Source: Candidatus Omnitrophota bacterium
Lineage (GTDB): Bacteria > Omnitrophota > Gorgyraeia > Velamenicoccales > JABMQK01
DNA: 12,490 bases
Assembly (NCBI GenBank): GCA_028712915.1
Contig: JAQTPJ010000013.1
Coordinates: 1-12,490 of the forward strand
Reading direction: 5' to 3'
A program made the translations under genes and the position numbers. Below the pieces are notes generated by a model. The model saw only the letters and a list, made by a program, of their open reading frames with translations, was not told the origin of the DNA and searched no databases. Shown piece by piece: positions 1-12,490 of the stretch; the stretch's first letter is position 1; each line of letters opens with the position of its first letter.

Positions 1-3000
1 TCAGTATTTCGTTGAAAAATAACTCTAGCTGAATAATCGCCTTTAATTCTGTATACTATATAAGTTCCGTCTTTTTCTTTTGTTAACCTCGCAGCATAAA
101 TATCTCCACAATTCAATGTAGCTCTCAAGTTATTGATTACGGCATTAAACTCTGCCTTGCGGCTCTTGGATAAACTGTTAACTATCTGGTTGTAGCTATT
201 TAAAGCTTCTTGTAATTCTTCTCCTTGGAGGACCAATAAGGTAGATATTCGTTCTCCTATTTTATAAAGTCCATTTTTTCTTTCTGCTCTGTATGTCACT
301 CTCCCGGACTCCTGGCTGTTATTATATTCAATAATATCTACGGAATATCCATCACCAGGGATCATGGAAATAACTGCTCGCTCTAGGCCAAACGCATCAA
401 CAGCTCTGGCAATCTTGAAGTTATAATCCATGGTAATTTCTTCAACCACCTGCAGGCCTTCATAACCCTTGATCTTATCGTCCGTATTAACGGCGTATCC
501 TATCTGGCCGACCTTGTCAGTAATTACCGGTTTATATTCGGAATTATAGTAGCAGATATTCTTCAACGCCTCTTTCCCGCTGTAGCGCGATGGCATTACT
601 TTGTTTCCTTTTGATAATATCGATGTCGTCTCACCCCTGTCAACGACAGCGATACCCTGAACCTTGACACCGTTAATAACCTGCGGCTGGTAATAGAACT
701 GCGCTGATTCTTTGCCGGTTAAAGCATCTATGCCGTATATTCTCGGGCTATCACCGGTTCTCTGGAGGATAACGGATACCTTTCCTTCAAGGCTTATCTT
801 GGAAATAGCCTTAATTTGAGCTATGGGCTTGTTTTCTACGGGCCTGAAATTACTATTGTAGTTATATATATTCGCGGAGTTTTTGCCGGTAACAACCTCT
901 ATCTCCCCGCCTTCCTCAGGATGCTTAGGGTCTCTGGGGTAATAACGTAACGCTTCTTCTCTATCGCCTTTGACAACGCCGAAGAATCTCGCATCCTGGC
1001 CTTTGCGTTCTAAGACAATATAATGCCTGCCGTTAAAGTTAAACCCTGTTCTCCTAGACACTGTAGCTATAGGCTCGCCTTTTGTTTCATAATTAGGCGT
1101 ATACCTATATATGTGGGATTCTGTTTCGGAAATAATTACTTCTGCCTCTTTAGGATAATACCTGACAGCCTCTTCGCCGGTGGCGGTATTAACCGCGTAT
1201 ACTCTCGGGTTCTTGCCGGTTCTTTCTATGACATTAACATCTGCTCCTGTTGGCTTGAGCGTAAAGCTGTTGACTATTTTTGTATTGGCCGTCTTATTGA
1301 TAAGTTCATAAGTCTTAGGGTTATAGGTGTATATGTCGGAGGTAGCCTTGGAGGTGATTAATTCTGCCTCATCAGAATAATACCTGAGGACCTCTTCGCC
1401 GGTAGAAGCGTTGACGCCATAAACGCGGTCATTCTTTCCTGTCCTGTGTAAAACAATTATCTTCTCGTCTTTTGGAGAGGTTATAGTATTAACTGTCTCC
1501 ACATGCGCAACCTTATCACCTAAAGTATAATCGGGGTTATATGTGTATATATCGGAGGCTGTCTCGGAAATAATGACTTCCACTTCTTTGGCTTCAGGAT
1601 AATACCTTAAAGCCTCTGCGCCGGTGTTCTTTATTACACCGAAGACTCTTTCATTGCCTAATTTCTCTATTGATTCCTGGCTAATATTGACGCGGCTTAT
1701 CAAGGAATATTCTGTGCCATTGATAGTAATGTCCTTGATGAAGCGCGATACGGCTACAGGCTCTCCTTCAAGCTCGTATGTTTCAGGATTATATTTATAA
1801 ATGTAGGATTCGGTATCATTGATTATAAGCTCTGCCTCAGCCGCTTTAGGATAATACCTTAAACACTCATCCTCTTCGCCTTTCTTTATGCCGAATATTC
1901 TCTCTTCGCCGAATTTGTCAATGGTTTCCTGGGCTATATTGGTGCGCTTAAATACTAAGGCTGTGCTTCCATCCTGTAAAGTAATCTCTCCGACTTTCTT
2001 GACATGGGCGACTACATCATTTCCTAATTCGTATGTCTGAGGATTATAGTTGTATATGTCAGATTCGTCTGCGGAAACGCTCAGGGCAGCTTCGCCTGTT
2101 TTCTCGTCTATCTGATAATACTTTATTGACGACTCTTCGGCTCCCATTTCGTTGTAATTAATATCTGCTATGCGCCTGCCGTTTGCCTCGATCCTTATGG
2201 GTTTGCCTGTGAACAAGTCTATGTATAAATCCCTGTCTGATTCTGTTCCGGACTTATGCTCGGTCATAACTAAGGTATTCGCCGTATAACCGAAATATGT
2301 GGTAATTAATTTTCTCTCTTTGGGTTCTGTGCGGGTTATGAGTTTATCTTTTTCCTGCATTGCGGAATTCCATGAATACTTCTCAGCCACGCCGGCAATA
2401 TCTCTTGCGCTCCAATACTTTTCATCGTAAGAATTATAAATGACGCTTTCAGCCTCGATATACGCGCCAATTACATAAAGGTTATCGCCTTCATAAATTG
2501 CCTTTTCTCTGCCAAAACCATCATAAGAAATTACTCTCTTTACGCTGTCTATATAATTTGTCTCCAAATAATCCGCGCCGCCGAACTCATTGAACGCCCT
2601 GTCTTTAATCAACTCTGTTGCGAAAAGTTTCTTTATGGCATTGCCTTCAGCGTCGCTTAAATAGACATTGGTCGTTGTTGCCTTGTCAAACGCGCCAAAG
2701 TAATCATCGTCATAATTATAGGTAATGAGCTTTGACCTGTTTGCGTCGGACTTGGTAATTAACTGCCTGTATGGCCTGCCTAAATTATCCGTTTCCTCGC
2801 GGACGTCTGCTTCTAAGGTATTGTTGCGGCCTTCATAAACTGCGCCGCCTAATTCCGAGAACCCTTTTAATTCAAAATATTTCAGGTTGGCATCGGCTGC
2901 AGCGCGCCCATTCATATCGAAATCAGCCACGCCGTATGAAGTGGCTATATTCAACAACTCATGGGCACCGTCTTTAAACTCTGATTTTACATATCTGAAC

Positions 3001-6000
3001 GCCTCGCCGGATTCATCCATCTGCGCGGTCATATGTGTGGCGCCGCTGATTAAGCCTAAGGTCTGCTCTTCTGTCCTAGCGACCCTGCCTGCAGCGTCAT
3101 AATACCTGACTTCTTTGCTTACGTATTCTTCGCCATCAATATATGTATTATCGAAGTCGCTCAATAATATGCCTGTTCCGTATATGTATGTTTTACCTGC
3201 GCTGGGCACCGGTATCAGGCTGAACTGCCTTGAATCAAAATATGAATAATCATTCTCATAGCTATAAACAGTTTCGCGGTTGCCTCTTACCTGGCGCAAT
3301 AACTTGCCAGCGTCTTCTGTATTTACGCTGTAGTAGTCTTTCTCTTCCCATAACTTCCTGCCTTGCGGCGTAAAGTATCCTGTGACGCGGCCGATTGCGT
3401 TCTCGCTATAGAAACCTGACAAATCTGCGCCCTCAAGCGTTGACATATTAACGATTGTATCCGCCTGTTTTATCAGCTGTGAATCCTGCGACCAGCTGGA
3501 CCTTGCTTCCTTAAGCGTCTGGTTGCCGGCGGTCAATGTCACGGCCAACGGAGCAATGGTTACCTGCTTCAAACCGCTCGGCAAAGAAACCATGCCGTCA
3601 TATAAGAATAGCGTTATAACTCCGCCCCTTGCCATATAGCCAAAGCCGATGCTGTCCGAATCAAAGTTAAAGTTATAATTCATCCTGGCTAACCTGGCAC
3701 TGATTTCTCCTCTTAACTCATACATCTTCACAACTATTTCTACATAGGTCTCAATATCCGGATACGCCTTCTGTTCATCAGAACTATTCAAGCCATCGCC
3801 TGTATTATCGGCTACATTAAAGAAGAATTGCCCAATCCTTTCAAATCTATCTGCGCCGTATCTCTTTTCATTTATAGGATTGAGGTTGAATGAACCGTCT
3901 ATGCCGACCTTATAGAAATAATTCAACGCTTGGACAAATTCCGGCCTTGTGGCTACAGATTTCATTAACTCTGCGAGATACGGCAATGAGTCATTGTATT
4001 TATCTATATCAAAATCAAACGGATTGCTGATATCGTCTACGCTGGTGGCAACCATAAATAACACAGGAGCTAATTCCTGCCAGTTTGTATCCAAAGTCAG
4101 GCTCAATGGCTCTTCTAACCTGCTTAACCCATAAGCCTGCATAAAATCTTCCCTGTTAAATGCAGCGCCCAATTCGTCTATTCTCTGCGTCAAATAATTC
4201 ATCTTGAAAGCCAAATCAAATATTGCATCAGAAAGATTTGTCACGTAATTGTATCCGTAGGTATCTATTGTTTGCTGGCCTAAGCTTACTTCGCCTCTTA
4301 AGCTGACATTGTAATATGAGTAGTATTCCTCGAATTTCTGGCGGCTTATTACATCGTTATTAAGGCCTTCTACAGCTACCGCTGCCGCAGGCAACGCCTC
4401 AAAGAAGCTGTTCATATCCAGCTCGGGATTGCCGACCTGGCCAGATACAAACTCTAAAGCATCCGCATCAAGCTTCTGGCTTAAATCAATACCGTAAACA
4501 GCCTCGTATGATTCCGTCAAGACGTTATCAGCCTTTATGGTATCCATGAATAATTTCAAATCTTCTAAGGCTTCAGCATATTTGTATGCGCCCTCATATT
4601 CATATACACCCCAGTTATATTCGCTGCGGGCATGAATTATATTGCTGATAATAGCCTCGTAGCTCCTTGTGTCTAAATTATCGATATTTATATCTATAAC
4701 GCCTTCACTGTCGGAATATATTCCTGAATATATATCGTTAAAGAATGATGCCAAACCTTTAGAATTCAATCCTGCCTTTAAGTCAACTACTTCCTGCAGG
4801 TTATTCTGGAAAATGTTGAGTTTCTGCGTAGAGTATTCGGGGCTATTGTATGTTCCGCCTAACAGATTCCACTCTTGGAATGCTCCGCTTTCATTAAGTT
4901 TTGCTGACCAGACCACATCATTTAACAATGCCTGGAAATAATTCATATCCAGAGATTCTTCTTCTAAAGCAAGGCCGGAGACATCCAAAACGTCAATCAA
5001 TAAATCTTTCTGTTCTGATGTAAGATTTTCACATAACCAGCTGACTATCTGTAAATTAAGCTTAAACTTATTAAGATTTTCTGTGGGGAAGTCGTTGGCG
5101 TCTTCATCATAAATCCAGTAGTATTCCCATAATCCAGTGTCTTTATCCTGATACTTGCTGAATAAAATATCCGTTGCCAATACGCCAAAACCGGGTATGC
5201 CTAAATTATCAAAGAACGTTTCGCTAGTATTAACACCTTCATAATCTTCATCTACGATATGGTATATGAGAGATTCATATTCAGATAAATTATCCAACAT
5301 CCACTTCTCGGCAATCAATGACGGAACAAACTTATCCTTATTGTCGCTCCAGTCCTCACCGCTTACTATGGCAAACAAGAACGTTCTGTATAAATTCTGA
5401 GTTCCGATTTCATCGCTATCTTCGTCATCCAGAGGGTCAAAGTTGCTGACTCCGAATATCTCTCTAATTGCATCCTTCGCCTTATAGTTAGCTCTGAGGG
5501 TATTATGGAAAAGTTCGTCAGCAGCCACAGTATTATCAATCAACTTCTGTTTCTCGCTGTCATCTCCGTAGCCTTTATAAACGCTTCCTTCTATACCCAA
5601 CGCATTCTCATATGTATTTGGCGCGGAGTTATTATCGCCTACAATATTGAATAACCAGCCGCGAAGGTCCTCATCGCTTGCAGGGGTATTCTCTATCTGG
5701 ACATCAAATATACGGCCAAACGCAGAGGGAACATTCAATCCATCATCATACCTGTGCTCATAAATATAATTATATAAATCTACAGCTTTAGAAATTGAGC
5801 CTATGAAGCTCTGTTGTATGGTTGGCCAGTTAACGTCTCCTGTAATATCGTATAAAATTACTACATAGGTATCTTCGTATACCCACATCTGCGTATGGTC
5901 AATATCATAAATGGGTTCCTGTGTCTGGGTAAATAATGTCTGCCACTCAGCAAGGAAACTTTCGCCCTGGCTGGAATATGCCTGCCATAATCTGCCTGCC

Positions 6001-9000
6001 ACTTCAATTACTTTTCCTAAATCTTGTATATAACCGTTTGTGCCATAGAGTTTCTCATTGGCGTTAGAGCCTTCATAATTGTCATTAATATAATTAGCCT
6101 TGCTGTAAATAAACTTATAAGCGTCTTCATTATCGGTTGGGAAGACTTCCACGAAATAGAAATTCATAAACTGCTGGTCAGCCTGCAAAGCCTGCGCAAT
6201 ATCTTCAACTTCATCTTCAGTGCTATTAACAGTTGCTACGATAGTGGCTGCCGCCTGCGAATTATTGGCTGCCTTCTCGATAAATTCTGTTCCAGCTGCA
6301 GAGTTGTATGTGCCGAGAGTATTTATGCTGGCGCTTATTTTGGTTAACGCGCCTTCTAACTCTTCTATATCTAGCCTGTTGGCGATATGGCGGACTTCCC
6401 TTGCTTTAGTCCTGCCGTTGATATCCTTTGAGAATTGCTGTAATTTATAGCTTGCCGGTTTCTTGGTGGCGCTCAATAAATTCCTCAAAGCTCTCCAGTC
6501 CTCGCTGTTTAAATCCAAGAGGTCAAGGTCTTTGCCTTTTATAGCCCTTACTTCATCGGCTATCTTTGCGTAAGATGCCAAATCTTGCTGCCGGTTTAAT
6601 TCATCAAATAGTTTCTGGTGGGAGGCGTTGTTTAAATCCAGGTTGATTCCCATGCCGGCGGAGAGCAGCTCATCTAGCGCGGCAACCGCCTCAGGATTCG
6701 CCTTTGCGGCAGCAGCCACAGGGTTATCAGCGTCTAAGCCATCCAATACCGCTTGCGCATCATTAATACTTACGGTATTTACGCCTTTAGCCAAGCTCAT
6801 ACAATTAGTCATCGCGTAATTGGCAAAGCTATTGCCGCTTATGCGGTTATTGGCTGTATAGGTGTTATACAGGCCGGAACCAAAGTTTCCGTTGTAAGCA
6901 GCGCTGCCGCTGAAATTCAAACCAACACTCAAGCCATAAACGCTGTTCTCTTCATTTCTATATTGCCCGTATAAACGGCTATTAAGGCTATGCCCTGCTG
7001 CTGACCTGAATATCCAACTTACAACGCCGCTGCCGATAAGCTTATCCGGCTCAACGCTGTCTCTAAGAATTCCTGCGTTTAGTGATACGTCTGATTTACC
7101 TATATTCCTTATGGTTAAATCTCCAGTTGCGCTCTCCCATCCTTCGCCAGTACCAAACTTGGTATTTAAACCCCATGATATATTGCCGTTCCTATGGGAT
7201 ATTCTGGCTGTCAAATTAGCATCCTGTATCTCTCCATCCTTTACTTGCGCGTTGCTATATAAACCTGTCGCCCAGTTTTTGCCAATCTTCTTCGTCAAAG
7301 CGGCTCTTGCATTGATATCATCCATACCTAAGAATTTCGCTTCAGCTGTAAACGCGGGGAACCCTGATATTTCTTCAACGCTTAACTTGGCATACGGGCT
7401 TACCCTGTATTTATCTTCGCTGTCAGAGCTAAAGCCGTTTGCTGCGCTTCCCTCAAAACCTTCATCCCTGTAATCAAAATCCAAGCCCACGCCTACAAAA
7501 TATAAATTCTTAACCCTTCTCTCAATGCCCACCTGGCCGTTATCAACGCCTGCCTGCCAATCCCTGTCAAAGGCAAGATTCATACGCCAGTTTTCATTTA
7601 ACATCATATGAGAATAAATCCCTGCGCCTTCGTCCTGCCAGAATACCCTGACATCGCCTTTATATTTATCATCCCTATCCCTGAATATGTAATTTCCGCC
7701 TACAAGACCGCTTACTTCATAACGGCTTACCTTATCTCCCTCAAATACAGGAATAATCTGCAAGCCTGTATTCAGGCTGAGCTTCTTGCTGTAATAATCA
7801 AAGTCCACAAAGTAGCTGGCATTATTGTCCTTGTCTATAATTACATAAACAGGAAGCTCCAATCTGTTGCCGTCCTGCAATGATAATCTGTATACCGTGC
7901 CAATGTTGGCTGAATAGCTGACTTCGTTATTGACCTTGGTCATCTTTAGGTAAGAATCCAGGATAATTTCATCCCTGCCCATTAAATCCAAAGGTATATT
8001 ATGGTTCATCACTGCCTTCAAAGACTCCCAGCTATTATTGAATTTGCCGTTGGGGTCGCCGCTGATTTCAAACCGCGTGTTTGCGCCTCTTGTGTTTTCC
8101 GAAGTGACATAGTATGTCCTGACGCCATCAGCTGAATATGTATTCCTTACCTCTGTAAACTTGCCTTCGCTGTTTACGAGAGACGTGAACTGAATGGCCG
8201 TGCCGTTTGAATACTTAAATGTTACATCGCTGACTACAGAAGCGTCTCTGGAAACTCTTGTATCAACAGATAACGCCTGCTGGGCGTCTTGCGCGCCGGT
8301 GGCATCTTTATGTTCAACCTGCTGCGGCAATTCTATACCGCGGGAATATGCCTCTAACTGTAAGGCTACGATATCATTCGCGGTTCTTGCTTTGGAAACC
8401 TCGTTATTATCGCTTCTTTCCTGAGCATCCAAAATCATCTGGGCGTCTATATATTCTTCCTGTATTGTCAATGCCTTGTCTTCTTCTTTTGATTCTGATG
8501 TCTCATTGTTTAATTCATTAACCAGCTTTTCCACTGCTTCTAATACTGCTTCTTCATTAGGCCCGGCCAACATACCAATAAGCTTATTGGCTAAAGGCAA
8601 ACCGGTCATAACCGCAGTAGTGATAAGGTTGGGAGAAACCTGCAATACCCACGGGCTCTTATTCTCTTTTATGGCCTGGACTGTCTGGTATAACATCCTT
8701 ATCTGCAGTTGTTCCATCAACGGTTTTAAATTCGCGCTCTCTATGTTTTCCGGCTGCTCTAATAACTCGATGAGCGACTTGTAATCGACTCTTAACTCTT
8801 TAAGTTCCTGCCTATTCCTTATTTCTACAGGTAATGATAATTTGCTTACGGCAACTTCTCTTTCTGCCTGCGCAAGGGCTAATTTCTGGCTGTCGGTTTC
8901 AGCGCGCTCCTTTGATGACTGGTAATTTGACGCAGTATATAGGTAATTTTTGTAATCAGCGATTGTCTTATAAGCAATCAACTGGGTATCGATTATTGTC

Positions 9001-12000
9001 TTTAGCCCTTCTAAGGCAACCTTATACTCTTTATAAGCGATATCGCTCTTTGATAAAGCCTCTATTTCCAGCCTGGCGGTTACTAACGAAACAAAATAAC
9101 TCAAGTCAACCTTAACGCCGTGCTTTGCGGCTAACTGAAGTTCTATATTGCTCAATTCTGTAATAAATCCGTGGAGTTCGAATGTGGATAAGTTATCCTG
9201 TATTGCTTTCTGGATGGCTTCTTTTAATATCGCATCTTTCGTCTGCGGAATTCTGGGCTGGACAATAGCTATAACTTCATCTATATTCTTGTAACCTTCA
9301 AATCTTGAGAGGAATTGGTCGGCTTCTTCGATAGAGACCGGGTAGGAATCGGCTTCCTGAATAGTAGCAGGCGGGGCTTTCACATCTTTACCCATAAGCA
9401 AGGCTGCTAGATAAACCTTAAACCAATCCTGCTGCAGGCTGTTAACTATTGCAGCCCAACCTTTAATTACGCCCATATCTGTGTTGAATTCCGAATATAA
9501 TGCGTCGCGGCCTTCTATCTTGAAATACTGCTCATAAGACTGGGCTTCGGCAACAACTGTTTCCGCTTCGCTCTTCTTTTCTTCTTCGGATTTTCCTTTC
9601 TTGGCGTAAATCTTATCAATTTTCTTTACCCAGTCAGATTTATTATTCCTGAACTCTTTAATCTTATCCTGGTTCTGTTTGGGCATCTCTGGCGGCTTAG
9701 GCGCCTCTGGCTGAACCTGTTTCTGCTTGGCCGCTTCGGTCTTAGTTTCTGGGATATTAGATGCGGACGGCGCTGGCGTTACATTATTATCCTGTTGCTG
9801 CGCTGCATCATTCACCACTGCAGGAGTAGTAGTTTCTACTGCCTCTGCTGCCTGCGGCGCTTTGGCTTCTGCTTTAACTTTCTCCTCAAAAGAAGCAACT
9901 TTAGTATCATACTGTCTGAGGGTTTCGATATCAGAGCCAAAGTTCATAACAGCTTCTATCATATCTTTATAGTTTGATTCAAATTTCTCTGTTCTCGCCT
10001 GTAAATTATCCCTCTGTAATTTAAGCCCTTCTGCTTTCTTGCTTGTAGCGTCATTTCTTAACTTATTCTCCCTGTCATACAAAGTAGCGCCTACGCCAGC
10101 CGAAGGTGTAAATAAGGCAAAACCCTGCGGGTTGGCGCCTTCTATATCCTGAAGCCTAAACCCTAAGTTTAAGCTTATCCTGGAAGCCCATTTCTTACCT
10201 AAGTAATTGTCTATATCATTTGGCTGCTGATTGTCGCTTAACTGCATATAAGACAGCCCTGCCAAATATGACTTTAATTCATCTATTGACTTAGTGATTA
10301 CTTCTTCGGGGATTGCAGGTATGGCGTTTAATCCTGCCGCTGATTCCAGGTTTTGCCTTGCTATCTGCAATTTCTCCTGCGCCGCTTTCCACTGCTCAAA
10401 TAAACTATTAGGCGTAATCAAATAACGGCCTTCGCCGATTTGCACTAAGTCTTTTGATATTGCGCCGCCTTCATAGAGCCTTACTAAAGTTTCAGCGCTA
10501 ATTAAATCAAGGTAAGCGATTTTTATCTCTTCCTGCTTTGCCAATTTAGCGTTCTCTAATTCAAATAATGCCTTGTAATAATTCAATACCAATTCTGTGG
10601 ATATTTTCTTTGCTTTATCTTTGGATAATACTTTATCTAAGGTTGTGGATATTGACAACCCTAAACCACCAACCCAATCTTTTTCCTTGCTGACTTCCTG
10701 CTTCTGAGCGAAAGTAAATAAATTGACGCCGTTGTCTTTGAGCATTCTTAATAATTTCGCAAAATCTTTCTTATCCAGTTCTTTTACCCTGTTTTCGAAT
10801 GCCTTAATTGCCTTAGCTGCTTCAGGATTCTTTGCTAAATATTCTCTCTCAAATTTAGCGTCATCCATTAATACTGCCAAGGCATCTACCAAAGAAACTT
10901 CTTTCTGGTTTACATTCCTTCTGCTCATATTATTTATAAGCTGCTGCCTTAACCTATTGTATGCCTGTTCCTGTAAATATTGCTGCCTCTGTATTGCAAG
11001 CTGTTTCCTCTGCTCTATTAATTCCTGCTGCGCCTCTTGTCTCTGTGAATCCTGCTGCTGCTTTATGCTTAAGGCTATTTTATTTTCAACCTCGCGGTTC
11101 TGCCTTAAGAATAAGCTTGCCGGATTAACCGCCTGGCCGTTTACAAGCACTTCAAAATGCAAATGCTCCTCTTCGGCATCTATTAAGGCATCCCCTGTCA
11201 TTCCGGTTTTACCTATAATTGTTCCGGATATTAATTCCTTGCCGGCCTTAATACTATTATTTATCTGTGACAAATGTGCATATAGGGACTGTATTCCGTT
11301 GCCGTGGTCGACAATTACTGTCAAACCATAACCTTCTTTTTCTCCGCTGAAGGAAACTTTACCTTTGGCAGCCGCATAAACATCAGTACCAGTTTTAGCG
11401 GCGATATCTATTCCTGTATGAATATTATTCATGTCGCTGCCGAACGGCCTGAGTATGAAACCAAATTCTGAAACCACAGAAACTTCTCTGCCGCCTATGG
11501 GCAATATGGCGCCCAACTTATTCCACTGCGCCTTCGCGCTTTCGCTGCCTTCAGTTGTTTTATCAAGCAATTCATCAGCAGCCTGCACCATCCATCTGGC
11601 TTCCACCAAACCCTTAATAGTCTTATAGTAGTGCTGCGCTGTATCTTCATCCCACTTGGCGGTCTGTTTTTCCTGCGGGAATTTCGAATCTTCCTGCAAC
11701 CTCTTGATAAGTCTTTCTGTATTTTCTATGTAAACGAATACGTTCTTGTCTATCTCCTGGTTATAACCTTCGTTATCTTCTGTTTTATAACCAAAGTTGC
11801 CAAGCAACTGCCTGTGATATAAAGCCAGCTGCTTTTCTATGAGCAGATTCTTTACTGCTATCATGGTCTCAACATGCCAATTTTTAGCATTCCAATTACC
11901 GGTTTCCTCCAAACCAAATTTCTTCTGTATTTCTTTAATGGCCTCTGCCATTTCATCGCTGAATATATTATCTGAATCCTGATCTCCCTTATTATCTTTT

Positions 12001-12490
12001 GCCGGTACAAAGCCAAGCCGTTCTAATAACTTGTATAACTTGGGTACATTATGATTTTTATCTCCCTTTTCAAGGTTAATACGTAAACCTGCTAACGCCA
12101 TGTTTGCTTCTTGTTCGGAGAGCTGAGCAATAAGTTCTGCCTGCCTTGGATAACCTTTATTCTCATCCATCAAAGCCTCAGCTTTATAGTTATCATCGTA
12201 GCTACTCTTTAGTATCTCCATTATATACTGATTAACTAAATCCAATTCCTTGTATGCTTGCTGATACATAGCCGCGTTTTCGCGGTAGAGGGAATCGCAA
12301 GATACCTGCGATAACGCTCCTGTAAGGCTTATCAAAGCTATGAATACGATAACAAGTTTCTTGACGTTGAATAAACTCAGTATATTCTTTAAGCTGAAGA
12401 TCGAAATAATTCTGAGTATGCTGACTCCAAAACTTAACAATAGGTTCTTTGTATGTTTTTTAAACTGGTATTCCTTAATCTTTGACCAGC
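1..12490 (-). CDS. Giant multidomain exported envelope protein, partial at both ends (M23 peptidase / TolC-like / beta-rich / YD-like / tandem repeats)
   Basis: One frame is open across the whole window. Codons run from 12488 down to 3, giving 4,162 sense codons with no TAA, TAG or TGA, and frame checks near 12362, 9003, 6003, 3003, 1503 and 3 agree. No start or stop is inside. The first in-frame ATG (residue 74) comes after the hydrophobic export region and has no Shine-Dalgarno sequence, so the real start probably lies just upstream of the window. The domain order is export region, peptidoglycan-binding-like segment, M23 endopeptidase, coiled coil, TolC-like helices, linker, second TolC-like section, beta-rich section, a large helical section, YD-like repeats and six tandem repeats. 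I count only about six cysteines, as is common in exported surface proteins. Codon style looks uniform throughout, so nothing suggests a recent domain insertion. The whole-protein function is unknown. A role at the cell envelope is inferred from the domains. Confidence 0.96.
3..485 (-). other. Region after the repeats, continuing out of the window
   Basis: Residues about 4002-4162. It starts with another YD-like turn (AVDAFGLERAVISM, Gly at residue 4034), followed by strands containing YSVDIIEYNNS and RVTYRAERKNGLYKIGERI. Then comes a helical segment (LQGEELQEALNSYNQIVNSL and KSRKAEFNAVINNL), and a strand pair with a Cys-Gly-Asp turn (LNCGDIYAAR). The reading frame is still open at position 3. 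If the protein is RHS-like, its C-terminal effector part would lie beyond this edge, but that cannot be seen here. Confidence 0.55.
486..560 (-). repeat. Degenerate seventh repeat start
   Basis: Residues 3977-4001 begin NICYYNSEYKPV and end with a strand containing VGQIGYAVN. This aligns with the opening of the sixth unit (NIYNYNSNFRPV followed by KPIAQIKAIS). It is preceded by GKEAL, equivalent to the GEEAL that precedes RYYP in earlier units. The rest of the unit is not preserved, so the tandem array decays here. Confidence 0.65.
624..2063 (-). repeat. Six tandem protein repeats of 72-85 residues (SxIYxYNP ... RYYP type)
   Basis: The units start at residues 3476, 3561, 3645, 3717, 3791 and 3871, that is at 2063, 1808, 1556, 1340, 1118 and 878. 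Their lengths are 85, 84, 72, 74, 80 and 85 residues. Each opens with S-x-I-Y-x-Y-N/T-P or a close variant, for example SDIYNYNP, SYIYKYNP, SDIYTYNP and SHIYRYTP. Next comes a Tyr-containing strand and a K/P-V/I-A strand, then a V-x-x-R-T-G-type hairpin and R-[IVF]-[YF]-[GA]-V/I. Most close with G-E-E-x-L/V-R-Y-Y-P, then a V-I-I-S-E-T-like strand. Third codon positions differ between units, so the duplications are not recent and the protein pattern has been kept. The fold should be all-beta and may extend the YD-like shell before it. I know of no named family with this pattern. Confidence 0.9.
2139..3404 (-). other. RHS/YD-like repeat region
   Basis: Residues about 3029-3450. Turns of the type [YFD]-[DT]-x-x-G-R recur with Gly at residues 3043 (TPQGRKLWE), 3134 (YYDAAGRVARTEE), 3194 (DFDMNGRAAAD), 3237 (ETDNLGRPYRQ), 3326 (SYDGFGREKAIYEG) and 3437 (IEANGRRIADINYNE). 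Between them lie two-stranded hairpins rich in Tyr, Thr and Asp. This is the signature of the YD/RHS repeat, as in Y-D-x-x-G-R-L-x-x. RHS proteins form beta shells that enclose toxins or act in adhesion. The spacing here (43-111 residues) is looser than the roughly 20 residues of classic YD repeats, so this is a divergent relative. No RHS core sequence or C-terminal toxin is visible in the window. Confidence 0.6.
3405..3689 (-). other. Beta-rich connector between helical region and YD-like repeats
   Basis: Residues about 2934-3028. The sequence turns from helices to strands: FGYMARGGVITLFLYDGMVS, then KQVTIAPLAVTLTAG, followed by a short Ser/Gln-rich helix (EARSSWSQDSQL) and a strand containing IVNMSTLEGADLSG. 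It has the look of an all-beta adaptor leading into the YD-like section. I recognise no family. Confidence 0.4.
3690..6800 (-). other. About 1,040-residue mostly helical region, no recognised family
   Basis: Residues 1897-2933. The opening part (Ala/Asp/Leu-rich, for example NPVAAAAKANPEAVAALDEL) is strongly helical. The rest consists of acidic, Tyr/Asn-rich helices joined by loops, such as GRLWQAYSSQGESFLAEW, YEHRYDDGLNVPSAFG, FDPLDDEDSDEIG and YYWIYDEDANDF. The acidic surface and aromatic residues suggest a soluble, secreted domain or several. Two stretches share a Y-E-G-x-N start (NYEGSNANEK near 6080 and DYEGVNTSET near 5240) and may be degenerate copies of one module, though the similarity is slight. 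No catalytic motif of a glycosidase, peptidase or nuclease was seen. I assign no function. Confidence 0.6.
3774..3809 (-). other. EF-hand-like calcium-binding loop (possible)
   Basis: Residues 2894-2905 read DNTGDGLNSSDE. This fits the 12-position EF-hand loop at D1, D5, G6 and the bidentate E12. Position 3 is Thr rather than Asp/Asn, and position 9 is Ser. It is flanked by a helix on each side (FERIGQFFFNVA before, IETYVEIVVKMYELR after), as in a real helix-loop-helix. Only one copy is visible, whereas dockerin and calmodulin-type loops usually come in pairs. Calcium binding is therefore possible but unproven. Confidence 0.45.
6801..8264 (-). other. Beta-rich section, possible outer-membrane beta-barrel
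   Basis: Residues 1409-1896. Short alternating polar/hydrophobic stretches rich in Tyr, Phe, Gly, Asn and Asp are separated by turns. Examples are VTFKYSNGTAIQFTSLV, YFVDFDYYSKKLSLNTGLQI, YFVGVGLDFDYRDEGF, ARISHRNGNISWGLNTKFG, RLYGQYRNEENSVYGLSVGL and LNFSGSAAYNGNFGSGLY. Strands of about 9-12 residues ending in aromatics are typical of outer-membrane barrels. There are enough candidate strands for a large barrel, but I cannot count them reliably by eye. A secreted beta-solenoid or stacked sandwich is the alternative. It ends at a Cys-Met pair near 6800, where the sequence switches to helices. I recognise no named family. Confidence 0.5.
8265..9668 (-). other. Second long helical, TolC-like section
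   Basis: Residues 941-1408. It begins with a highly charged helix (KKGKSEEEKKSEAE), then mixed helices, then a long Ala/Leu/Glu heptad-like region from about 9110 to 8850. That part includes VTARLEIEALSKSDIAYKEY and ERAETDSQKLALAQAEREVA, ending in LSLPVEI. The second half reads like the helical hairpin of an OEP repeat and may complete the hairpin begun before the linker. A more hydrophobic patch (ITTAVMTGLPLANKLIGMLAG, about 8635-8560) follows. After it come acidic helices rich in Glu that lead into the beta-rich section. OEP kinship is weaker here than in the preceding section, and a generic coiled coil is the alternative. Confidence 0.45.
9669..9887 (-). other. Pro/Ala/Gln-rich flexible linker
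   Basis: Residues about 868-940. The composition is dominated by Ala, Pro, Gln, Thr, Glu and Lys (APQAAEAVETTTPAVV, later PEAPKPPEMPKQ) with almost no large hydrophobic residues. It looks intrinsically disordered and separates the first OEP-like section from the next helical section. Such linkers often cross or lie within the peptidoglycan mesh. Confidence 0.75.
9900..10676 (-). other. TolC / outer membrane efflux protein (OEP)-like region
   Basis: Residues about 605-863. The order of elements follows an OEP repeat. A strand (GGLGLSIS) is followed by a long helix with regularly spaced Ala and Leu (LNYYKALFELENAKLAKQEE), then AYLDLISAETLVRLYEGGAI, a turn, and a helix ending ARQNLESAAGLN. Next comes a strand (ISLNLGFRLQD), then PSAGVGATLYDRENKLRNDA, which matches the strand-plus-D-R motif opening the second helical hairpin. 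In TolC-family proteins these parts make a trimeric outer-membrane channel with a long periplasmic helical barrel. TolC homologues are stand-alone proteins of roughly 400-500 residues, so having one inside a giant polypeptide behind a peptidase is unusual. Family assignment is by pattern only. Whether it forms a channel is unknown. Confidence 0.65.
10929..11095 (-). other. Gln/Arg-rich coiled-coil segment
   Basis: Residues about 465-520. Directly after the M23 domain comes a highly charged stretch rich in Gln, Glu and Arg (for example QQQDSQRQEAQQELIEQRKQ) without Pro or Gly, ending near RLRQQLINNMSRR. It should form a long helix or coiled coil, perhaps a spacer or oligomerisation element between the peptidase and the TolC-like part. 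The composition resembles coiled-coil arms found next to LytM domains in EnvC-like proteins, although there the coil precedes the domain. This is inference from composition. Confidence 0.7.
11096..11501 (-). other. M23/LytM zinc endopeptidase domain with intact active site
   Basis: Residues about 330-465. The two zinc-ligand motifs are both present: H357-T-G-I-D361 (H-x-x-x-D) and H442-L-H444 followed by FEV. The additional active-site histidine is in YAHL (H405). The usual framework is also there: a Phe-Gly turn and R-x-F-G before the first motif, A-A-x-G-x-V, V-x-V-D-H-G-N-G, and V-N-P after the HLH motif. M23 enzymes cut peptide cross-links in peptidoglycan. All catalytic positions are kept, so this should be an active enzyme rather than one of the degenerate EnvC/NlpD-type activators. 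One oddity is the loop before HLH, which reads DALIDAEEE in place of the short Ser/Thr-Gly-Pro turn usual there. The domain lies after the export region, so it would act in the periplasm or outside. Confidence 0.93.
11855..12047 (-). other. Peptidoglycan-binding-like segment (PG_binding_1-like)
   Basis: Residues about 148-212. The pattern is a short helix with a leucine pair (LYKLLERLGF), an acidic loop, then FSDEMAEAIKEIQKKFGLEE, a Gly and a Trp-containing turn, then a final helix (VETMIAVKNLL). This matches the layout of the PF01471 peptidoglycan-binding fold, whose hallmark is a helix of the type T-x-x-A-V-K-x-F-Q followed by G-L-x-x-D-G. In that family the domain tethers wall hydrolases to peptidoglycan, and here it directly precedes an M23 peptidase, which fits. 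The assignment rests on pattern only. The usual DG pair after GL is not exact, so it may be divergent. Confidence 0.55.
12297..12488 (-). other. N-terminal export region (long basic/hydrophobic leader)
   Basis: Residues 1-64. A Lys-rich stretch (KIKEYQFKKHTKN) leads into a moderately hydrophobic segment at about 16-40. A second basic patch (VKK, 42-44) is followed by a strongly hydrophobic core at about 45-60 (LVIVFIALISLTGALS). After it the sequence becomes polar and helical, as expected past a signal peptide. A type I signal peptidase site after ALS (58-60) is plausible. The long n-region resembles the extended signal peptides of very large secreted proteins. It could instead be one or two membrane helices anchoring the protein in the inner membrane. 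No ATG, GTG or TTG codon here has a ribosome binding site at suitable distance, so the start is probably upstream. Confidence 0.6.

Follow-up and report, generated by a model that had tools for sequence, protein, structure and literature searches.

The window analysed here is a stretch of 12,490 bases that makes up the complete contig C20 of a MAG (G000; 1.06 Mb in 187 contigs, 76% complete), and its features are collected in Table 1. Exact reverse-complement translation of the minus strand from 12488 to 3 yields 4,162 codons with 0 stops, and the five other frames contain between 153 and 402 stops. At the base composition of the minus strand, stops are expected at 6.7% of codons, corresponding to a probability of ~10^-124 for 4,162 open codons. 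The sequence-only reading had described one uninterrupted minus-strand frame through both window edges, had proposed translating the reverse complement of 3..12488 to look for in-frame stops, and had argued that non-coding DNA would hold many of them; the exact translation and the stop counts bear this description out. GC content by codon position in this frame is 0.47/0.34/0.45. We regard the frame as coding because the protein is colinear over ~3,300 residues with that of an independently assembled relative, and because its differences from a second contig of the same genome are biased towards third codon positions (both described below). Since the window is the entire contig, the giant gene is truncated at both ends, and the full gene is likely far larger than the window.

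Table 1. Features of the window, with residue numbers of the encoded protein and nucleotide positions of the window.
Feature	Residues	Position	Strand	Remarks
Open frame, internal piece of a giant gene		3..12488	-	4,162 codons; leaves the contig at both ends
Hydrophobic stretch (membrane or internal signal-like segment)	15-65	12294..12446	-	Simple hydropathy scan
PG_binding_1 (PF01471), peptidoglycan binding	147-202	11883..12050	-	30.7 bits, cut-off 23
Peptidase_M23 (PF01551)	356-456	11121..11423	-	100.8 bits, cut-off 28.7
Helix-rich region	520-1395	8304..10931	-	Model confidence poor; TolC-type resemblance not significant
Strand-rich region	1395-1890	6819..8306	-	46% identical to STB_25; model confidence poor
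Module	2657-3463	2100..4520	-	In 7/197 class genomes (its own among them); identity with STB_25 49% (2827-3381)
Tandem protein repeats	3449-3932	693..2144	-	Six (L/V)RYYP-like cores, spacing 72-84 residues
Similarity to G004 (residues 15019-15392 of its 39,687-aa frame)	3788-4157	18..1127	-	28% identity
Stretch common to the window and contig G000:C6 (89%)		12085..12490		Probable assembly branch point

Near the start of the encoded segment, the hydrophobic stretch is followed by the sequence ...SQVSC, which bears only a loose resemblance to a lipobox under what we take to be the lipobox rule. The M23 domain further along carries H357, D361 and H442-L-H444, all conserved in the copy of the relative STB_25, and these residues fit HxxxD + HxH, which we take to be the zinc-binding and catalytic motif of the family. 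With both an M23 profile match and these active-site residues in place, the domain is a predicted endopeptidase. It resembles M23 endopeptidases (e.g. structure 3slu) in its active-site residues but, unlike the small enzymes of this family, lies within a chain thousands of residues long. The sequence-only reading had noted that known bacterial genes of this size are mostly surface adhesins, giant envelope proteins or megasynthases, and had seen no synthase domains; the peptidoglycan-binding and M23 domains are of envelope type, and neither the Pfam nor the NCBIfam listing of the window contains a synthase domain, so that a megasynthase (PKS/NRPS) was rejected. An RHS/YD-repeat protein was likewise rejected, no RHS/YD profile being present in the Pfam listing of the window.

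AlphaFold2 models built on a two-row alignment gave mean pLDDT values of 41 for residues 520-1400 and 34 for residues 1395-1890. The idea that residues 520-1395 are TolC-like came from a sequence pattern that we presume to be characteristic of such proteins, and it did not survive a profile comparison with Omnitrophota OEP proteins (16 loci obtained, of which 8 passed the length filter and were aligned): the best probability was 2.4% at E 0.02, against E 0.11 for the reversed control, and the OEP profile was absent among Pfam matches of the window at E up to 1. For the strand-rich region, a periodicity test reached z 2.7 at residues 1501-1750 among 17 blocks, too weak to carry a claim alone, and the region is possibly an outer-membrane barrel. 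A further region extends from there to residue ~2660. Within it, window residues 2386-2618 match several overlapping places in STB_25 residues 12829-13363, which likely reflects a change in the copy number of a repeated unit inside the giant gene. The repeats at residues 3449-3932 had no Pfam match, and DNA tandem repeats were not reported in the window. Cysteine is rare, with 6 in 4,162 residues.

The window protein was searched in two halves against 79 genomes (its own and 78 relatives). Most first-half matches were to the M23 domain alone, a domain common in ordinary proteins. The nearest matching relative, Candidatus Omnitrophota bacterium STB_25 (G001, contig JAQTSV010000001.1), belongs to the same family as the window genome, which places the gene in an Omnitrophota organism. 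Residues 80-3380 of the window are colinear with residues 10241-13879 of a single STB_25 frame at 36-37% identity (41% over residues 80-2618). Window residues 1-79 and 3381-4162 had no match in the STB_25 frame, and no hydrophobic stretch resembling residues 15-65 was seen just before its matching part. The length of this frame, 42,094 aa (126 kb), assumes that the contig is closed over an exact 77-bp overlap of its ends; unclosed, it consists of pieces of 13,008 and 29,111 aa (39 + 87 kb) that run off both contig ends, compared with 12.5 kb, open at both ends, for the window. The frame that results from circular closure lends support to the earlier claim that the window belongs to a giant gene.

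Shorter matches to the window lie in G034 (a frame of 45,379 aa with both ends inside a one-contig genome), in G004 (39,687 aa) and in three frames of 5,597, 3,583 and 6,162 aa. We take G004 to be Ca. Velamenicoccus archaeovorus LiM, on the basis of its frame length (39,687 vs 39,678 aa), its start at 29,823 and its Tad position; over the portion of its frame that was compared, nothing matched the window at E 0.001 beyond residues 3788-4157. All six copies of the module at residues 2657-3463 found outside the window's own genome lie in frames of 5,597-45,379 aa. Neither the window nor the N-terminal segment described below was matched in G002, another genome of the same family (71% complete). 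Searched whole against 5.8 billion proteins, the window protein returned itself and two matches of 3-4% coverage, both with M23 listed, and residues 520-1900 returned no match; this is no proof of absence, because proteins longer than ~7,283 aa are hidden by a length rule in the whole-protein search.

Next, we considered other pieces of the giant gene in the same genome. Contig C100 was matched by the opening 3,000 residues of the STB_25 frame: a 930-aa frame that runs off the end of this contig is 57% identical over query residues 2-452 and 46% identical over residues 464-709. Two small matches, on contigs C151 and C145, cover a peptidoglycan-binding stretch of the query. The window and the C100 N-terminus lie on different contigs, and we infer from STB_25 that they are parts of one gene. 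The two stretches of STB_25 that flank the homologous part, residues 7300-10239 and 13880-16779, had no match in G000, an empty result that is weak in a 76%-complete genome.

A further contig, C6, has its final 406 bases in common with the first-coded end of the window, in three sections: 126 identical bases, 221 at 80% identity and 59 identical. The C6 frame (2-3436) is open over 1,145 codons and in phase with that of the window. In the shared stretch, differences fall 8, 7 and 30 times at codon positions 1, 2 and 3, with 18 silent and 18 non-silent codon changes. C6 probably lies directly upstream of the window, because identical runs of 126 and 59 bases around a middle of 80% identity resemble a branch in an assembly graph; the two would then probably be related as strain variants or as a duplicated module. 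C6 had no match to the STB_25 frame, which counts against simple colinearity. Ahead of this shared part, C6 also contains a weak RelA/SpoT match below the cut-off and three SSP motifs. Among the 78 further genomes searched, 14 contain relatives of C6, in frames that measure 464 to 23,032 aa.

On C100, the giant frame has its first ATG three bases past the stop codon of a T2SSF gene, tadC, which is itself preceded by a second T2SSF gene, tadB. This neighbourhood was seen for the gene family, C100 included, and not on the window contig. The pair precedes a giant frame in 7/7 loci (G000, G001, G004, G034, G040, G145 and G149), a count that gives no class-wide estimate because the loci were picked for their long frames or as the window's own genome. 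The distance from tadC to the giant frame, stop codon included, is 3, 7, 243, 243 and 625 nt in G000, G001, G004, G040 and G145, respectively, and in G034 one frame of 1,483 aa lies between the two. Pfam identified the T2SSF domain in tadB and tadC of G000 and of G034 and in the tadB of G001; for the others, the assignment comes from BLAST to the G000 proteins. Calling the two genes tadB and tadC is our reading, as is the pilin-like appearance of genes further upstream; two frames further upstream on C100 had no Pfam family.

The N-terminal segment of the family (449 residues of C100) has matches in 63/197 genomes of the class. In 38 of these 63, the match begins within the first 20 query residues, and the frame concerned has 5,000 aa or more in 21 of the 38 and 10,000 aa or more in 14; none of the remaining 25 lies in a frame reaching 5,000 aa. 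The 45,379-aa frame of G034 had no significant match to the segment. The giant has an N-terminal signal-like sequence (...QQVAWAVDY), and the family and G004 (taken as LiM) are alike both in an N-terminal hydrophobic segment ending QVAWAVDY and in the upstream tadB-tadC pair. Within the segment, both STB_25 and G000 exceed the Pfam cut-off for a C39-type peptidase profile, and in six aligned N-termini a Cys and a His are kept in 6/6, with an acidic position that is Asp in 5 and Glu in 1. The conserved Cys falls outside the Pfam match, because the latter starts at position 33 (G000) or 42 (STB_25) of the profile, and the catalytic role of this Cys is our assumption.

Cysteines are unevenly distributed along the giant frames. 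STB_25 has 12 in its first 15,660 residues vs 229 in the 26,434 that follow (Fisher p 4e-32), and where the change occurs, at residues 15.7-17.0 thousand, membrane-type helices form a cluster; a second such cluster, at residues 8972-9527, lies within the cysteine-poor part. A similar step is present in G145 (26 cysteines in 14,000 vs 286 in 21,884 residues), with cut points that, as in STB_25, were chosen after viewing the profiles. Cysteines rise gradually in G149, and in G034 they rise at residues 9-14 thousand and then fall. ORFs outside the giants contain 11.6 (G034) and 12.0-13.4 (STB_25 flanks) cysteines per 1000 residues. We take the scarcity of cysteine to mean that the first part of the giant, the window included, would be exported.

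Two further observations concern the giant frames at large. In STB_25 residues 5329-8953 and 17230-42094, the strings SSSP, SSPV and SSPI are 74- to 120-fold over-represented; the SSP motif is also strong in G034 and, in the form SSPA, in G004, and it is possibly a linker or a processing site. As a class-wide rule it was rejected, SSP[IVA] being rare in G145 (3) and G040 (1) and modest in G149 (15). All four SSP[IVA] occurrences among 36,468 aa of non-giant ORFs of G034 fall in one ORF (13230-16913, L083; 1,228 aa). The STB_25 frame also contains domains of enzymes that belong to ordinary metabolism: triosephosphate isomerase, phosphoglycerate mutase (iPGM), PPDK_N, uridine-kinase type, nitroreductase, radical SAM, methyltransferases and acetyltransferases. 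Its triosephosphate isomerase copy is devoid of what we take to be the usual N-terminal lysine motif, and the notion that essential enzymes exist only within the giant frame was rejected, as STB_25 has an ordinary free triosephosphate isomerase too. Extra matches to this enzyme, some in tandem, occur in G031, G028, G012, G076, G034, G046 and G077, in frames of ~1,000-3,240 aa.

Together, these data lead us to favour, with some reserve, a reading that places the window in the interior of a giant gene, of the kind found behind tadB-tadC in a lineage of Omnitrophota (probably the class Velamenicoccia), and has it encode a wall-binding, wall-cutting section of an exported protein. The giant gene would be expressed together with the Tad machine, and the megaprotein would leave the cytoplasm by way of its signal-like N-terminal sequence. 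Its first third, including the window segment, would lie mostly outside the cytoplasm, with the STB_25 membrane-helix cluster dividing this outer part from a cysteine-rich, cytosol-like C-terminal part. The window segment would then grip the cell's own peptidoglycan and cut cross-links locally, and the resulting opening may allow the megaprotein and the Tad apparatus to cross the wall and make contact with a partner or prey cell. The envelope of the archaeon Methanothrix is not known to contain peptidoglycan. Our choice of the cell's own wall as the target is a judgement, made because the best-studied relative damages this very archaeon, according to the available part of the source (PMC13153191).

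The same observation weighs against the reading that the exported window segment is a weapon acting on the wall of a bacterial prey, as is generally proposed for the giant proteins of predators. The complete M23 active site would suit such a role, and the parts of two papers available to us present giant ORFs as tools of predation (PMC10066038, PMC12057145). The M23 domain of STB_25, however, lies thousands of residues from either end of the chain, and we hold an attack on prey walls to be rather unlikely.

An alternative in which the chain is processed into numerous functional parts, possibly by the C39-like peptidase at its N-terminus, with the window as one or a few of the products, seems to us unlikely. 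The C39 profile matches, the Cys and His kept in every aligned N-terminus beside a mostly Asp acidic position, the many separate enzyme-like domains and the occurrence of SSP[IV] at 79 sites in STB_25 vs 1 expected would all accord with processing, but the conserved Cys lies outside the profile match and owes its catalytic role to our assumption, SSP[IVMA] is absent from the window, and the motif is scarce or modest in G145, G040 and G149. We give a distinctly low chance to a more elaborate form, in which a Tad-linked polyprotein headed by a secreted C39-type peptidase would, through [SA]SSP[IVA] sites in some lineages, free tens of domains, the window among them as a wall-opening set, to build a channel between predator and prey. 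A passive coat or adhesin, with the M23 domain a relic or a binding element only, would be in line with the coat proposed for V. archaeovorus in the available part of its description (PMC10066038) and with the long repeats in the window, but M23 active-site residues that stay unchanged at ~41% overall identity between the window and STB_25 make it very doubtful. An assembly artefact or a chance open frame, for which the fragmentation of the MAG and the branch point at the right edge of the window could be cited, has next to no probability given the odds of the frame arising by chance, the colinear homologue in an independent assembly and the third-position bias of the C6 differences; on sequence comparison, that colinearity also answers the concern about a chimera raised by the earlier reading.

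The locus is best read, in our view, as part of an exported, wall-directed giant behind tadB-tadC, and it belongs to a published kind of gene. As far as the available part of that report goes, giant ORFs >20 kb occur in 77/116 Velamenicoccia and have few annotated domains; the LiM giant protein has 39,678 aa and 42 predicted helices, is proposed to be a coat, and yields 3-fold more peptides in attached cells, LiM being the one case for which peptides are reported; and Tad and the giant ORFs are treated apart (PMC10066038). Elsewhere, again in the parts available, giant proteins of up to 85,800 aa are cited, as is a West-Roberts et al. preprint about the degradation of cell walls (PMC12057145), and the Omnitrophica are listed as one of the phyla of bacteria that show an enrichment of huge proteins (PMC11573180). 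The window shares with the LiM giant, as described there, its phylum (via STB_25) and a very long single frame, and differs in that only 12.5 kb of its gene are known. With STB_25 the window shares the same peptidoglycan-binding and M23 domains, and C100 shares the tadB-tadC neighbours; unlike STB_25, the window begins with a hydrophobic stretch, and the ~2,900 STB_25 residues flanking the homologous part on each side are unmatched in G000.

The family also resembles Tad (tight adherence) clusters for pili and secretion in having two T2SSF genes, in the order tadB-tadC, before the giant gene, and we know of no described Tad cluster in which a giant multidomain last gene is a defining part. A search of one open library found nothing on an Omnitrophota polyprotein or on a giant protein with a Tad pilus. 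In the part of the literature covered, we found no description of the Tad position, the C39-like head or the cysteine zoning, and the original LiM paper may report the Tad neighbourhood.

Giant Omnitrophota genes are already known, and the window adds another member. Their products are, in the portions of the literature cited above, among the largest predicted proteins, and their roles are described as poorly understood. A signal-like, C39-like N-terminus, a position behind Tad genes and a cysteine boundary would together give a testable hypothesis of where such a protein goes and which machine it partners, and the window adds a predicted wall-cutting module to the part that would lie outside the cytoplasm.
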